Shown: one piece after another, positions 49,975 through 59,302 of the stretch
How positions within the stretch are numbered: position 1 is the stretch's first letter
Layout of the letters: each line of letters opens with the position of its first letter
Assembly (NCBI GenBank): GCA_002839185.1
Contig: PGXO01000001.1
Span: 62,001 to 126,000, forward strand
Length of the DNA: 64,000 bases
Reading direction: 5' to 3'
From: Synergistetes bacterium HGW-Synergistetes-1
GTDB taxonomy: Bacteria > Synergistota > Synergistia > Synergistales > Synergistaceae
Translations under genes and position numbers: made by a program
The notes under the pieces: generated by a model
What the model was told of the DNA's origin: nothing
Seen by the model: the letters and a program-made list of their open reading frames with translations, nothing else
The model's database searches: none

Positions 49975-50906
49975 ATGGATTCAAAGATTTGGTATATCAC
50001 AGCAAAGAATGACCGATTGGAAAAGAACGTCGGAATCTATTGTAGAGTGAGCACAAGTGAAAGAGATCAATTAAATAGTTTATCTGCACAGATATCAACA
50101 TTAACGAGAGCAATTTCACACGTGAGCCAATGGAAACTTAGCGATACATATCATTGATATGCATCAGATAAAGGAGATTCACCGCGCCGAGAATTTGAAC
50201 GTATGATTCAGGAATGTGAGGCCCACCGCATTTCTGTTATCCTGACAAAGAGCATCAGTAGATTTGGGCGGGATACGGTTGATACATTAACTGCTTTAAA
50301 TAGAATGAAAGTTGCAGGTGTGCGAGTGATTTTTGAAGAGGAAAACATCGCTACGGATGATGTTGACAGTAATCTTCTGATTTCTGTAATGGAATCTGTT
50401 GCACAATCCGAGAATGAAAGCAGAAGCGAAAATATTCGTATGGGTCTTTCCTTCCGAGCAGCTAATGGAACTTCTGGTTTATATAAGCGAAGGTGTAAGG
50501 ATATGCCAAGAATGAAGATGGCGAGCTTATCATTAATGAAGAGCAGGCCAAGGTAGTACGTTATATATTCCGCTGGTACCTTGATGGGGCGAGTGTTTTG
50601 GGTATCATTAAGAAACTGTCTGAAGCCGGGGTTCCCTCTCCTTCAGGGAAAGAAAAATGGAATAAACGAGCCAAAGAAACGATGCTCGCAAATGAAAAAT
50701 ATACTGGTACAGTTACACTCTTGGACTCAGCAACACAGGAATATCAATACCAAATGAAAGAGTTCCATCCTCCGATAATAACAGAAAGTGAATTTAGGGT
50801 GGTGCAGGAAGAAAGAGCCAAAAGGAGTAACGTTGTGACGGACGATGACTGGACTCATCGAAGTAGAAAAAAATATAGTTCAAAGGAAAAAAGAATATCT
50901 AACTAG
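49975..50906 (+). pseudogene. Serine recombinase, broken
   Basis: The N-terminus VGIYCRVSTSERDQLNSLSAQ has the catalytic serine of the resolvase/invertase family. The frame then meets an in-frame TGA at 50158-50160 between DTYH and YASDKGD, continues in the same frame through SRFGRDTVDTLTALNRMK, and is lost near 50497 by a missing base. The C-terminal recombinase domain resumes in the next frame at about 50500 and runs to 50906 (INEEQAKVVRYIFRWYLDGA). Two lesions make function very unlikely. A typical intact protein would be longer (about 500 residues), so the C-terminus may also be short. Confidence 0.85.
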
Positions 50907-52866: not shown

Positions 52867-53706
52867 ATGGAACGAAAAATTAAAAATATGGCAACAGGAT
52901 TCAGAACTCGGGACGGAGCCGGAGTAGACCTTGTCAGAGTTTTGGGACACGATACCGTAGAAGAATTCGACCCGATCCTTATGCTTGATTCATTTGACAG
53001 CACTGATCCCGATCAATATACAGCGGGGTTCCCCATGCATCCGCACAGGGGAATAGAGACTATAACTTATGTCTATCGTGGACAGATCACCCACAGGGAC
53101 AGCTTGGGTAATGAAGATACTATCGCCCAGGGAGAGGTCCAATGGATGACAGCAGGATCCGGAATTTTGCATGAGGAAAAACTGCCTGCATCCGAGAGAT
53201 TGCTTGGAGTCCAGTTGTGGCTTAATATGCCGGCAAAAAACAAAATGTCAGCTCCCGCATACAACAGTATCAAGAATTCTCAAATTCAAGAAATTATGTT
53301 GGATAATGGAAATTTAAGACTTCTTGCAGGTGAATATGAGGACACAAAAGGGTACGCAAGCAAATATCTCCCGTTGGACTTTTATGATCTGCATCTTGAT
53401 ACCAATGCCTCAGATGTAATAAATACTGATAGGGAACGTTCCGTAATGATATTTACACTTTCAGGGAATGCGTACATAGGGGGAGAACTTGTCAGGGAAA
53501 AGACGGCAGTAAAACTTACACCCGGCGACTATGTTGAGATAATGGCAACAGATAAAAATGCCCAGGTCCTGTTTGTCAGTTCGACATTCCTGAATGAACC
53601 TGTTGCCTGGGGAGGACCAATAGTAATGAACACTAAGGAAGAATTGAGCAAAGCATTTGAGGAATTGAAAAATGGAACTTTTTTGCAAAAGGTCATCTCC
53701 TATTAA
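52867..53706 (+). CDS. Pirin family protein
   Basis: A 279-residue bicupin of the pirin family. The N-terminal metal-binding cupin shows PMHPHRGIETITYVYRGQI then HRDSLGNEDTIAQGEVQWM and GILHEEKLP, giving the usual His/His/His/Glu set. The C-terminal half ends with an oxidised-quercetin-type fold region. Some pirins are quercetinases; others bind regulators. The start is ATG 52867 with AAGGGTGG upstream, not the GTG at 52855. It is next to prxU, with a terminator between them. Confidence 0.9.
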   Translation: MERKIKNMATGFRTRDGAGVDLVRVLGHDTVEEFDPILMLDSFDSTDPDQYTAGFPMHPHRGIETITYVYRGQITHRDSLGNEDTIAQGEVQWMTAGSGILHEEKLPASERLLGVQLWLNMPAKNKMSAPAYNSIKNSQIQEIMLDNGNLRLLAGEYEDTKGYASKYLPLDFYDLHLDTNASDVINTDRERSVMIFTLSGNAYIGGELVREKTAVKLTPGDYVEIMATDKNAQVLFVSSTFLNEPVAWGGPIVMNTKEELSKAFEELKNGTFLQKVISY

Positions 53707-53754
53707 CATCAATATTTATACTTGAATTTGATCAATCACAGAGGAGGAATTCTG

Positions 53755-54144
53755 ATGTCAAGAAAAGCTTTCACAGCAAAAGATGGAGTCACTGTAGGGC
53801 CCTATTCTCATGCAGTAGAATCAGGGGAATTTGTCTTTCTGTCGGGACAGACACCCGTTGATCCATCAACAGGGAAAATGGTGGAAGGCGATATTGCCGC
53901 TCAGACAAAGCAGTGCTTTAAAAACCTTTTCAGCGTTTTGGAGTGTGCCGGATTAACGTCAGATGATGTAGTAAAGGTCAATGTGTTTTTAACAAGCATG
54001 AGTTATTTCCAGGAGATGAACTCCGTATACGCAGAGCATTTTTCTGCCCCTTATCCTGCAAGAACTACGGTCGCAGTAGTCGAACTGCCTCTTGGCGCGT
54101 CTATAGAAATTGAATTGACAGCAAGAAAACAGAAAGCCCGGTAA
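53755..54144 (+). CDS. ridA: RidA family 2-iminoacid deaminase
   Basis: A 129-residue RidA/YER057c protein that speeds release of ammonia from reactive enamines and imines made by pyridoxal-phosphate enzymes. Seen: FVFLSGQTPVDPSTGKMVEG, NLFSVLECAGLTSDDVVKVN, and the substrate Arg in PARTTVAVVELPLGASIEIE. GAGGAGG precedes ATG 53755. It runs 1 nt ahead of the VOC gene. A decayed copy of its 3' end lies near 55340. Confidence 0.92.
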   Translation: MSRKAFTAKDGVTVGPYSHAVESGEFVFLSGQTPVDPSTGKMVEGDIAAQTKQCFKNLFSVLECAGLTSDDVVKVNVFLTSMSYFQEMNSVYAEHFSAPYPARTTVAVVELPLGASIEIELTARKQKAR

Positions 54145-54145
54145 C

Positions 54146-54592
54146 ATGACTCGCTACGTACACACCAATATCATAGCCAAAGATGCTGAAAAGCTGATAG
54201 CTTTTTATAAGAAAGTATTCGGCTGCAGAAGCATAGGTGAAAAAAGAGATCTTACGGGTGCATGGCTTGATAAAGTCACCGGACTTGAAAATGCCCATAT
54301 CATCGGGGAACATCTGGTTCTGCCTGGATATGACGAGGACCATCCAACACTGGAAATTTTCTCCTACGACAGCATGGAAGGCGAACTTACCCATAAGATC
54401 AACCAGTACGGTATCGCACACCTCGCTTTTGAAGTGGACAGTGTAGTTGATACTCTTGATAAACTGCTTCAGAACGGAGGCAGTATGGTTGGCGAAATCG
54501 TTAACGCTGATTATCCGAACGGACGCAAAGCAACCTTTATCTATGCGGCTGACATTGAGGGAAACATAATTGAACTTCAAAGCTGGAGCTGA
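54146..54592 (+). CDS. VOC-fold (glyoxalase I-like) protein
   Basis: A 148-residue vicinal-oxygen-chelate protein. The first half is TNIIAKDAEKLIAFYKKVFG, then EHLVLPGYDEDHPTLEIFSY; the second half has GIAHLAFEVDSVVDTLDKLL and FIYAADIEGNIIELQSW with the metal Glu. This suits lactoylglutathione-lyase-like or dioxygenase folds, but the substrate is not readable. The ATG is 1 nt behind ridA, so the two are coupled. Confidence 0.85.
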   Translation: MTRYVHTNIIAKDAEKLIAFYKKVFGCRSIGEKRDLTGAWLDKVTGLENAHIIGEHLVLPGYDEDHPTLEIFSYDSMEGELTHKINQYGIAHLAFEVDSVVDTLDKLLQNGGSMVGEIVNADYPNGRKATFIYAADIEGNIIELQSWS

Positions 54593-55326: not shown

Positions 55327-55462
55327 CGAAAAATTTTTCCTTATCCCGCATGAACTATTGTCGGAATGGTCGAATTTCCTCTTGGCGCTTCGATAGAAAT
55401 AGAATTATCGGCAAGAAAAGATACAGCACGGTAACATTACCCTGTACGTTTACACTAGATCA
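55327..55462 (+). pseudogene. Decayed copy of the ridA-VOC junction
   Basis: Positions 55361-55434 encode VGMVEFPLGASIEIELSARK then DTAR and a stop, closely like the end of RidA at 54071-54144. The TAACAT junction and the following VOC start are also echoed but carry indels and a stop. It is a 3' fragment of a former second ridA-VOC copy. Confidence 0.75.
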
Positions 55463-55517
55463 ACAAAAGTCAATCTAAGGCATACAGAAGATCTTGACCG
55501 AGACTGATTATTAGATT

Positions 55518-55536
55518 TATAATATGACTCAAGTCA
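55518..55536 (+). promoter_or_regulatory. TetR promoter with operator
   Basis: TATAAT (55518-55523) is followed directly by the palindrome TGACTCAAGTCA (55525-55536), placing the operator over the transcription start for autorepression. Confidence 0.65.
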
Positions 55537-55546
55537 AATAATTGGA

Positions 55547-56173
55547 GTGTATAATATGGCCCGACCGCCACAAGATCCACAAATTAGAATAAATGAGATT
55601 TTAGATGCTGCAGAGGCACTGTTTTATGAGCGTGGTTATCAGCCTACGCTGATAAGTGATATCGTAAAAAAAATCGGGGTGGCTCAAGGCACATTCTATT
55701 ACTATTTTTCTTCCAAGGAAGAACTTGTTGAGGCTCTCATCAATAGACATTTATCGAAATTTCGGACAGCTATTGATGCGGTAGCAAACTCTACAGTCAT
55801 TTCTCTGCCTCGAAAAATCGAGTTAATGGCAAATATTTTGCCTGCTACAATTCAGGGAAAACAAGGATTATTATTGGAATTCCTTTACAATGATCAATAT
55901 CTTCATCTTATGGATAAAGTATTTCGACAGGCAAAAAAATTACTTGCTCCATATTTATTAAGTGTTATTAAAGAAGGACAAAGAAAGCAAATTTTCTCCG
56001 TCCCTCATCCCAAAGCCGTTTCTAACTCAATCATGTCCATTATTCAATGCTATGTTGAAGCCATATATGAAAAAGAGGCGGCTGATATTTTAGAATACCA
56101 AAAAAAGTTTGCAAAGCGGCTTATTGAAAATGCACTGGGATTGCCCGAAGGGGAGTTACATATACCGGTGTAG
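55547..56173 (+). CDS. TetR family regulator
   Basis: A 208-residue repressor. The HTH is NEILDAAEALFYERGYQPTL then ISDIVKKIGVAQGTFYYYFS, with the usual KEELVEAL following. The C-terminal ligand domain is family-divergent. The palindrome TGACT-N2-AGTCA lies in its own promoter and again before the next gene, so the probable regulon is visible. The start could also be the ATG two codons downstream (55556). It is 126 nt ahead of the glycosyltransferase fusion. The ligand is unknown. Confidence 0.9.
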   Translation: MYNMARPPQDPQIRINEILDAAEALFYERGYQPTLISDIVKKIGVAQGTFYYYFSSKEELVEALINRHLSKFRTAIDAVANSTVISLPRKIELMANILPATIQGKQGLLLEFLYNDQYLHLMDKVFRQAKKLLAPYLLSVIKEGQRKQIFSVPHPKAVSNSIMSIIQCYVEAIYEKEAADILEYQKKFAKRLIENALGLPEGELHIPV

Positions 56174-56229
56174 TTCGACGAGATCATATTAAGCTCAACA
56201 ATGTATGAGCATCTTTTAATCTAATTAAT

Positions 56230-56241
56230 TGACTTGAGTCA
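56230..56241 (+). promoter_or_regulatory. TetR operator before the glycosyltransferase fusion
   Basis: TGACTTGAGTCA is the reverse complement of the palindrome in the TetR promoter. It overlaps TTGACT (56229-56234), a -35-like box, so binding would block transcription. Confidence 0.65.
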
Positions 56242-56299
56242 AAATAATCAAACCATTCATAACTTTAAAAAATTTTTTTACATCAGAAGGAATAAAAAT

Positions 56300-58765
56300 A
56301 TGAAAATTATTATATTCTACTCTTCAATTGGACAGGGACACATTAGCGCCGCTTGTTCGATCGAGAAAGAAATTCTAAAAAAGGATCCTTGCGCCATAAT
56401 TTTGCAAAAAGATATTCGTGAATTTATGGACCCGATAGCAAGAATGCTTAATGAAAAACTTTATTGGTTTGTCGCCCAGAACTTACCTTATTTGTTTGAT
56501 AATTTGTTTCAGTCCATGCAAAAACGGGGAAAGTGTGTAGGTTCAATAACTTGCTTGCCAAGCGAATATTCAGAACAAAGAGTGCATGAATACCTTTTAG
56601 AGGAAGCCCCTGATGCTGTTTTTGCAACACACTACGGTGCAGCCCAAGTACTGGGCAATTTAAGAGAAAAAGCCCTGATGCCAAACATCAAGATCGGTTG
56701 GCTTCATACCGATTATTTTGTCGGGTACTTTCCCCGTATATCCAAAATGATCGATCGAACTTTTTTAGCGCATCCTGCACTAAAAACAAGCTGGCTGGAA
56801 TCAGGCGTGTTCTCTGATTTGGTTGAGACTTCCGGCATGCCGGTAAATGTTAAAGACACTGATTCAGATGTTTCAAAAGAATGCTTAAGCAAAATTGGAT
56901 TTCAAACATCAATCAAAACAATTGTGCTTGCCAGCGGAAAGGAGGGAATAGGAGATTTTCCTGGAATTATCATAAGCTTGGCTAATGCAACAGAGCAACC
57001 GCTGCAAATTATAGCTGTTTGTGGCCGTAATAAAAAACAATTCGAAGCATTGCACCAAATTGAGCAACAGATGCCTAAACATGTTAAATTGGAAATCATG
57101 GGATTTATCCCGCAGGCTGACTTGGTTTCGTTCGTTAGTGCATCTGACTTGTTTATAACCAAGGCAGGAGGGTTAGCTCCGTCAGAAGCTTTTGTATTGG
57201 GGAAACCAACGATATTATTGAGTGTGATCAGCGGGCACGAAAAAGAAAATGCAGAATTCTTCGCGAGACTCGGGCTAGCTGAAATAAATTCTGCAGTGGA
57301 GGAAATTGGCAGCCAGACACAATTACTTCTTAAGGATGCGGCAAAACAGACTTCCATGCTGAAAGCACAGCGAGTATTCCGAGAAAACATGAATATTAGT
57401 AAGATAGCGGATTTCCTTCTAAATCCGAAAATTGTGCCGCGGAGCTTAAGTCCGAAATTTGGTTTGGAAAATGGAGATTCAGCACGCAACATTGGAAGTG
57501 CGCTGGCACAGTTGGAAAACGACGTGCCTGTTGATTTGGAAATCTTGCTTTCCTACTCTTCGTCAAAAGAAAATGAGCACATTGCCACGGAAAACCCATT
57601 TGGGCATATTGCAATTCGGATCGGTGATACCGTATATAGCTCCAACCATCATGCAGATCGGGCAAAAGAAACACTTTTGCTCCAGCATATGAACGTGAAG
57701 AATTATTTATTCGGTGTTTATCCTGCATCGGGCAATCAAGAACATACAAGTACATATGGGATGGCATATGGCCGCGATACTTTGGGATTACGTGTTAAAG
57801 GAGTTCCCCGGGAAGCTATTCAAAGGATGGATGCAGAGGCGGCAAAGATTGAGGAAGAATTCAGCATGGGAGAGTGTAAGTATGATGCAAAAAAATCAAA
57901 TTGTGCGGATTATGCTGAAAGAATTCTGGAGGCAAGTGGATATTATGTGGGACAACTTCATGAGTTAAACTTTTTTTATACTATGCCGCTGGATGTTTTT
58001 GAAAAAGCACGTGAAACTTTTCAAGCTGTTCCCGGTTTCTGCACCGAATTGGTAGCATATAGACGATTGACAAGTTCTCAATCACCTTACCGCTTCTCGC
58101 GGTTTCCACTTTCCCTGGGCCAGCCTGTAAGGTCATTTGCGCATATTATAAACAATAATGCGATCGATCGTCTTGAATCAGAAGTTAAGGCACAACTGAC
58201 CGGATATTATGGCGATGACCGTATTTTTTTTGAAGAACTGAGCCCCAGCTGGAGGAGTGTGGCGCTTAATAATTTTAATCGTCCGCAAAGACGAACAATG
58301 AAAGTCGGAAACGTTCTTGTTTTAGAAGCTCGTCGATTGTTCAAGCAAAAGAAAATCTTTTATATTATAAATTATAAAAAAATAAGGGAGCAACAGGTTA
58401 AGCGTGAAGCTAGCCATTTGCTTAACAATTGCTATGATACGGTCAGAATAACGCTTGAGCATGTGGAAAGAATACTCGGTGCCGCGAATACTAAAAAACA
58501 GCGCGCGGCATTTGTAAGGCTTACACGGGAATATGGTGAATCTAGTCGCTGGAAACATGCACCCGCTGAGGTAACTAATTTCATTAAAAAAATATCTGAG
58601 TTTTATCAAATTCTCGAGCAAGACTGTCAAGATAGAGACTTGAAAAATCTAATTCTTGAGATAAAGACGATATCAAGGAACCTGGAAAATCGTGTAAAAC
58701 GTTTATTTGGGATTGATTCTAGTGATTTGTCAGTAAAAAGTTCCAAGAATCAACTGAAGCGATAA
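56300..58765 (+). CDS. MGDG-synthase-like glycosyltransferase fused to permuted NlpC/P60-like domain
   Basis: An 821-residue protein. The N-terminal GT28-type half (about 1-385) begins MKIIIFYSSIGQGHISAACS, as in monogalactosyldiacylglycerol synthases. It has TKAGGLAPSEAFVLGKPTIL as donor-site loop and IGWLHTDYFVGYFP. The C-terminal half has NPFGHIAIRIGDTVYSSNHH then KSNCADYAERILEASGY. This His-before-Cys order fits circularly permuted NlpC/P60 (LRAT/YiiX-like) enzymes. A third, helical C-terminal part has no recognised domain. A lipid glycosylation plus acyl or amide chemistry role is inferred. ATG 56300 has GAAGGA upstream. Confidence 0.75.
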   Translation: MKIIIFYSSIGQGHISAACSIEKEILKKDPCAIILQKDIREFMDPIARMLNEKLYWFVAQNLPYLFDNLFQSMQKRGKCVGSITCLPSEYSEQRVHEYLLEEAPDAVFATHYGAAQVLGNLREKALMPNIKIGWLHTDYFVGYFPRISKMIDRTFLAHPALKTSWLESGVFSDLVETSGMPVNVKDTDSDVSKECLSKIGFQTSIKTIVLASGKEGIGDFPGIIISLANATEQPLQIIAVCGRNKKQFEALHQIEQQMPKHVKLEIMGFIPQADLVSFVSASDLFITKAGGLAPSEAFVLGKPTILLSVISGHEKENAEFFARLGLAEINSAVEEIGSQTQLLLKDAAKQTSMLKAQRVFRENMNISKIADFLLNPKIVPRSLSPKFGLENGDSARNIGSALAQLENDVPVDLEILLSYSSSKENEHIATENPFGHIAIRIGDTVYSSNHHADRAKETLLLQHMNVKNYLFGVYPASGNQEHTSTYGMAYGRDTLGLRVKGVPREAIQRMDAEAAKIEEEFSMGECKYDAKKSNCADYAERILEASGYYVGQLHELNFFYTMPLDVFEKARETFQAVPGFCTELVAYRRLTSSQSPYRFSRFPLSLGQPVRSFAHIINNNAIDRLESEVKAQLTGYYGDDRIFFEELSPSWRSVALNNFNRPQRRTMKVGNVLVLEARRLFKQKKIFYIINYKKIREQQVKREASHLLNNCYDTVRITLEHVERILGAANTKKQRAAFVRLTREYGESSRWKHAPAEVTNFIKKISEFYQILEQDCQDRDLKNLILEIKTISRNLENRVKRLFGIDSSDLSVKSSKNQLKR

Positions 58766-59302
58766 GTCTAGATTGTGGATTGGCTGGCATTGCCGGAAGA
58801 GAAACATGTTACAGAATTTTACATGTACTTTCTTGTATTTTTGGAATGCCTGTCTCATAAGAAATCGAACTCCTTTCTGCTGGAGTCTTTGGTAAATCAC
58901 AGAAACTTAAGCTTCACAAGGCGATCTTGCCGCCGGCATAAGGTTACTATTAGAAGATAAAATATTTTATATCAGATCAATTCGAGGTCTTATAATTCAT
59001 CAAAGCAAGGCGGGGACAGTCTACAGTACTTAAATAGTTTATCAGTACAGACTTGCTTGCAAAACATTACTTTTCTTTCTCTTTATACCCAAAAGTGCTG
59101 TACAACTCTCATTTAATGTGATAATCTTTGCAAATTTTAAGGGGCAATAATTTATGCACCCCAAAAATTTATATTTTTGGAGCGCATTTCATCCTCTCTT
59201 AGTCATCATGCATGAAGAGGATAAACTTTGTACGAAGACGATAAAAGACAGCCAATAATTTATCAGTTGCCTTATTTGCATAGGAAAGTGAGGTTAAGAT
59301 CG
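58766..59302. other. 537-bp intergenic region before dapA
   Basis: No gene seen. GGGGCA...TGCACCCC near 59141-59162 and TCCTCT/AGAGGA near 59193-59220 are short hairpins. An extended -10 TGTGATAAT (59118-59126) may start dapA transcription. No lysine riboswitch pattern is recognised. Confidence 0.45.

Follow-up and report, generated by a model that had tools for sequence, protein, structure and literature searches.

A TetR-family regulator gene (55556-56173, + strand, 205 aa from its ATG) is followed in the window, by which we mean the whole 64,000-nucleotide stretch of DNA analysed, by a GT28/MGDG-synthase-like glycosyltransferase gene (56300-58765, + strand, 821 aa), and the same palindrome stands upstream of each gene. 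The locus therefore raises the question of whether this palindrome is the operator through which the regulator controls both itself and the enzyme. Our comparisons of related sequences lead us to answer, with good confidence, that the palindrome would be the operator of the TetR encoded between its two copies, with autorepression, repression of the enzyme gene and release by a ligand. This layout of a repressor and one enzyme is ordinary TetR logic applied to an unusual enzyme.

The palindrome pair and its frequency

The twin 12-mers of the original prediction are exact matches in the window: site 1, TGACTCAAGTCA, at 55525-55536, and site 2, TGACTTGAGTCA, at 56230-56241, which are 705 bp apart, site 2 being 58 bases 5' of the enzyme ATG. 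Site 1 had been placed right at the TetR start; it does lie 5' of tetR, but it ends before the likely ATG (55556), with 19 bases between. An alternative GTG start at 55547 is unlikely, because stop codons follow it directly in one of the related loci considered below (L036). The description of the second site as the reverse complement of the first is exact, but the motif is palindromic, so only the central CA or TG dinucleotide changes with orientation. In L036, the centre of site 2 is TA, and the orientation of the two sites therefore means little.

The pairing of site 1 with site 2 exceeds chance. A 5+2+5 palindrome common to both intergenic stretches was obtained in 18 of 20,000 dinucleotide shuffles, and, among the 81 perfect 5+2+5 palindromes of the window, a half-site was shared within less than 1 kb only by the site 1/site 2 pair and by an A/T-rich AAAAT trio. 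The motif alone is about as frequent as expected by chance, since its own genome (2.17 Mb) contains three exact TGACTNNAGTCA sites, with about two expected from 4^10, and its looser forms are mildly enriched at most. Within the window, the 12-mer with up to two mismatches was found seven times versus 5.8 expected, without enrichment, and TGACTNNAGTCA with up to one mismatch was found five times versus 2.05 expected, a mild enrichment or none, with 7 of 100 shuffles reaching five. The genome search for the motif, which the original prediction had proposed, placed the third exact site inside a long coding frame that we take to be mfd-like, and allowing one mismatch gave 42 places (the three exact sites included) versus 68 for a reversed control pattern. 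A wider regulon was considered and dropped, the near-matches being fewer than those of the control. Given this lack of genome-wide enrichment, regulation looks local, in agreement with the small self-contained unit that had been proposed.

An extended site-2 pattern was found in two of 185 phylum genomes, once in each and at the cassette itself; as this pattern was derived from the same sites, the result shows only the absence of further copies. Among the genomes of the genus, the window's own and a second one (G001) each have two exact TGACTYRAGTCA sites and a third (G003) has one; the other five genomes, several of which are incomplete, have none. The G003 occurrence, TGACTTAAGTCA at locus L087 (G003:C46:18564-18575), lies 5' of an unrelated ORF that, by its look, we assume to be HtrA-like. 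The G003 assembly (79% complete) yielded no TetR match at E 1e-15 and one general TetR match at 3.6e-6. This site is likely to be due to chance, because the base counts predict about 0.4 occurrences in 1.5 Mb. A palindrome located 5' of an ORF in a genome without a close relative of the TetR would nevertheless suit binding by another regulator of the cell rather than by the neighbouring TetR. We consider this unlikely, since one of the only three exact sites of the own genome is in coding DNA, near-matches are not enriched, and the exact motif is missing from most of the genus, incomplete assemblies included.

Conservation of the sites and of the regulator

A scan of genome contigs, which detects close relatives only, retrieved three related loci: L034, L035 and L036, the last on a contig of Synergistaceae bacterium UBA6101. 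L036 contains the G001 locus (L005), with no difference over 3615 bases, and the two were counted once. The enzymes of L034, L036 and L035 are 97%, 81% and 78% identical, respectively, to that of the window over the alignment (73% for L035 in its best BLAST segment). Both sites stand at the same places in all four loci found to carry the tetR-enzyme pair, the window included, and 80 of the 80 half-site letters are kept over the eight sites, with 10 of 10 at site 2 in each locus. The sole change within a site, at position 56236 in L036, falls in the unconstrained centre. The palindrome was thus present before the orthologues in the three other loci, an outcome on which the original prediction had staked its case in advance.

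The surrounding DNA is more variable. At the other intergenic positions 5' of tetR, 37 of 99 differ from the window in L035 and 47 of 101 in L036; 5' of the enzyme gene, the corresponding numbers are 33 of 114 and 12 of 114. Divergence therefore ranges from 29 to 47% in both stretches of L035 and on the tetR side of L036, and is 10.5% on the enzyme side of L036, which makes this locus weakly informative on the conservation of site 2. For comparison, 21-26% of the four-fold sites of tetR differ from the window in L035 and L036. L034 differs at only 4 of 104 and 4 of 113 intergenic positions and, its enzyme being so close to that of the window, adds little weight; the conservation sample thus consists of the window and three loci, with L034 counting for little. 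So few loci, one of them with nearly identical intergenic DNA, are what a pair of chance palindromes kept through recent common descent would require, but such an origin is extremely improbable in view of the shuffles described above and of the unchanged half-sites of L035 and L036, around which the DNA has diverged.

The regulator itself has a TetR_N helix-turn-helix well over the Pfam cut-off (PF00440, E 3e-19, 69 bits versus 24). Its predicted structure, with nine helices, is an all-helical two-domain fold (mean pLDDT 66.9, pTM 0.57), and the 50 structural matches listed, which include SlmA, EthR, MtrR and QacR, had Z values of 13.3-14.7 and rmsd values of 3.5-5.0 over 176-194 residues. This comparison of a predicted model identifies the general TetR fold only, and is silent on operator choice. 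The best two NCBIfam matches, ScbR and RefZ, are both confined to the first ~90 residues and fall short of the equivalog cut-offs (54.5 versus 150 bits and 44.7 versus 180 bits, respectively). TetR identities in the three other loci are 88, 93 and over 99%, and the recognition helix is invariant in all four loci, as expected if the operator and its reader had been kept together. These features, with the sites in place in each locus, point to candidate operators of the adjacent TetR, as originally proposed.

The exact site is absent in all 28 loci of more distant TetR homologues (L006-L033), and in L006, L007 and L008 it is absent even at one mismatch. No glycosyltransferase was seen adjoining the TetR gene in L006-L009 or in L011, as judged by eye from partly printed frames. 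A search of viral contigs found no orthologues, and all 466 TetR-matching plasmid records fell below 60% identity.

Promoter arrangement and possible mode of action

Upstream of tetR, a promoter-like element, P1 (TTGACC, 18 bp, TATAAT; 55494-55523, + strand), matches 11 of the 12 positions of the sigma-70 consensus. Promoter-like sites are not in excess across the whole region (five versus 4.1 in shuffles), and the layout of P1, TTGAC(C/T/A) with a spacing of 17-18 bp followed by TATAAT, is found in all four loci. In L035 and L036, no BLAST homology to the window is seen before about 55508-55515; the -35 element has therefore persisted through replacement or drift of the DNA further upstream. 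The operator begins one base past the -10 box, 7 bases beyond its first base in each of the four loci; site 1 thereby overlaps the promoter region of the TetR gene itself, lies over the expected transcription start and is part of the longest invariant intergenic run of the four loci compared (55518-55542). Because site 1 follows the -10 element of a near-consensus sigma-70 promoter so closely in every locus, it is best read as a site of autorepression by the adjacent TetR, and a palindrome centred on the expected start is the arrangement of a putatively self-repressing TetR.

In the available excerpts of Ahn et al. 2012 (PMC3511530), TetR regulators are documented as habitually repressing neighbouring genes by way of palindromes. 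As for TetR/tetA and the autoregulated TetR-family repressors presented in those excerpts, the cassette combines one TetR gene with two palindromic candidate operators, which would control its own promoter and that of the target. Unlike in TetR/tetA as described there, the target is located 3' on the same strand rather than divergently, the sites are separated by 705 bp with tetR between them, and the target is an enzyme rather than a pump.

The situation at site 2 is less clear-cut. A -35-like element had been proposed there, and this part of the original prediction did not hold: hexamer pairs reach 8 of 12 at most in the four loci, the best pairs differ by locus, and in L035 the TTGACT of site 2 reads ATGACT. 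Directly 3' of site 2, an invariant run, AATAATCA (56243-56250), is present in all four loci and may hold a -10 element, AATAAT (56243-56248, + strand), of a promoter belonging to the enzyme gene. A weak promoter and a roadblock to readthrough would each fit this layout. In a narrower form of the preferred reading, and one compatible with it, site 1 would be autoregulatory and site 2 an internal roadblock in a tetR-enzyme transcript from P1, the enzyme gene having no promoter of its own. We regard this form as a tentative possibility. It would suit a strong and conserved P1 beside an unconvincing enzyme promoter, and two genes on the same strand with a gap of 126 bp, in which the only terminator-like hairpin 3' of tetR is weak (five pairs, 56193-56210, + strand) and no better than shuffles (one found versus 0.9 expected). 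The recurrence of AATAATCA after site 2 in every locus, resembling a -10 element, argues against it.

On the preferred reading of two operators, a TetR dimer at site 1, just past the -10 element and over its own transcription start, would block RNA polymerase at the strong P1 and repress its own gene. A second dimer at site 2 would keep RNA polymerase out of the glycosyltransferase gene, by acting on a weak promoter with AATAAT as its -10 element or by halting readthrough from P1. As is usual in the TetR family, a small molecule would then free both sites, such that repressor and enzyme would rise together. The enzyme gene is probably under the control of site 2, and the repression part of the earlier interpretation is likely to be right. 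The sequences themselves show the two sites, their conservation, the geometry of P1 and the absence of a wider set of sites; the binding of TetR to the sites, repression, the existence of a ligand and the mode of action at site 2 are what we infer.

The two copies might instead form an RNA hairpin or mark the ends of a mobile element, as a five-pair RNA stem is possible at site 2 and the cassette is accessory and located in rearranged DNA (see below). Both variants appear very unlikely. A transcript from the expected start at site 1 would contain only half of the palindrome, and the stability of intergenic RNA folding is not above that of shuffles (z -0.46). As mobile ends, the copies would flank tetR alone, the only frame of at least 80 aa listed between them, leaving the enzyme gene outside.

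The enzyme and the distribution of the cassette

The putative target has two domains over their Pfam cut-offs, PF06925 at aa 14-182 (36.4 bits versus 25) and PF04101 at aa 231-356 (32.9 bits versus 22), followed by a C-terminal extension of ~430 residues. Its sequence matches in the PDB are 9wde and 4wyi. It resembles, and shares these GT28/MGDG-synthase domains with, the processive diacylglycerol glucosyltransferase PRK13609 and chloroplast MGDG synthase 1. However, the cassette enzyme is far below the NCBIfam equivalog cut-off for PRK13609 (diglucosyl diacylglycerol synthase, presumably of the UgtP/YpfP type; 125.5 versus 500 bits), and it differs from both in its extra C-terminal part of ~430 residues. 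As the own genome also encodes the glycosyltransferase part as a stand-alone homologue (C2:36545-37477, 26% identical), the cassette enzyme is probably an accessory copy. Regulation of an enzyme of this type has a parallel in HexSDF/HexRK of Clostridioides difficile, in which the regulated gene, hexS, encodes a predicted MGDG synthase for a membrane glycolipid; unlike the cassette, that system consists of a three-gene operon under two-component control, and the available excerpts do not mention a TetR regulator (PMC10128005). Among the matches listed from open PMC papers for the terms used, none named this tetR-glycosyltransferase pair; a set of operator strings matched no paper, and the one paper matching both the 12-mer and 'tetr' is on zebrafish.

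The C-terminal part may include a permuted papain-like (LRAT-like) region at aa 432-542 (57593-57925, + strand), with GHIAIRIGD and NCADY stretches in the His-before-Cys order and with His436 and Cys535 invariant in all four loci. The corresponding Pfam match, PF04970, is sub-threshold and limited to the L036 orthologue (E 0.072, 13.8 bits versus 24.3), and was not listed in the Pfam scans of the window, L035 or the distant L039 proteins. Permuted NlpC/P60 enzymes have the same His-before-Cys order, and the active site of one such enzyme contained a fatty acid, according to the available excerpts of PMC3142127; the cassette enzyme shares this order but, unlike them, reaches no family model cut-off. 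An LRAT-like/permuted NlpC/P60 identity is a lead only. In the window protein, neither residues 385-660 nor residues 385-821 matched a Pfam family at E 10, and for the C-terminal half the PDB profile search reached E 0.38 at best, NCBIfam gave sub-threshold matches only, and the AlphaFold model (mean pLDDT 33) was useless for fold. Two sub-threshold Pfam matches of residues 661-821 to viral families and a sub-threshold Csm2 match of the L035 enzyme (E 0.008) were taken as chance. Lnb_N (PF13387) was found in none of 120 phylum genomes, the own genome included. The tail of the enzyme (window 58280-58762) looks dispensable, since the protein ends near residue 715 in L036 and the tail is gapped in L035.

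Both tetR and the enzyme gene are present in only two of the 185 phylum genomes, the window's own and G001, and in two of the eight genomes of the genus, several of the others being incomplete. The enzyme alone matched 67 of the 185 genomes at E 1e-15, and, besides these two, only the G050 enzyme matches over most of the length (54% identity), the remaining matches extending to about residue 400 only. The G050 assembly has no TetR match at E 1e-3, and its enzyme gene runs off the contig, the upstream DNA with the site region being missing. In G007, a dapA-like gene has no adjoining cassette and homology to the window starts at 59037, 3' of the enzyme gene, and in L035 a different gene lies directly 3' of the cassette. 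The cassette is therefore accessory, and we infer that it may have been transferred or lost more than once.

The locus thus supplies an uncharacterised Synergistota TetR with a candidate operator that is both specific and conserved, and ties it to one rare glycolipid-type enzyme whose C-terminal half is unassigned. Owing to this tie, both can be tested in a heterologous reporter, and an inducer could reveal the substrate of the enzyme. A bolder model would make the two genes a mobile envelope cassette: a lipid-sensing TetR, with two operators separated by its own gene, would set separate repressor and enzyme levels, a bifunctional enzyme would add sugars to a membrane lipid and also add (or remove) acyl groups, and site 2 would be a promoterless internal roadblock opened by the lipid product or substrate; taken as a whole, this model is decidedly unlikely.

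Several minor observations concern the surroundings of the cassette. The contigs of L035 (JAHFZE010000286.1) and L034 (JAGPMA010000077.1) are labelled as Methanomethylovorans sp., an archaeon, and as Oscillospiraceae, respectively, and we suspect that both are mis-binned Synergistota. A stretch 5' of tetR in the window (about 55339-55440) resembles 54049-54150, at the 3' end of the gene at 53722-54144, which we assume to be RidA-like; the L034 copy of this stretch is 83% identical to 54049-54150 over 102 bases, and rearrangement appears to have left this gene fragment behind. Similarly, the stretch 53415-53520 of another gene, presumably pirin-like, recurs 3' of the enzyme gene in L036. The ORFs at 50203-50906, which we take to be broken pieces of a site-specific recombinase, are possibly a relict mobile element 5 kb 5' of the cassette.
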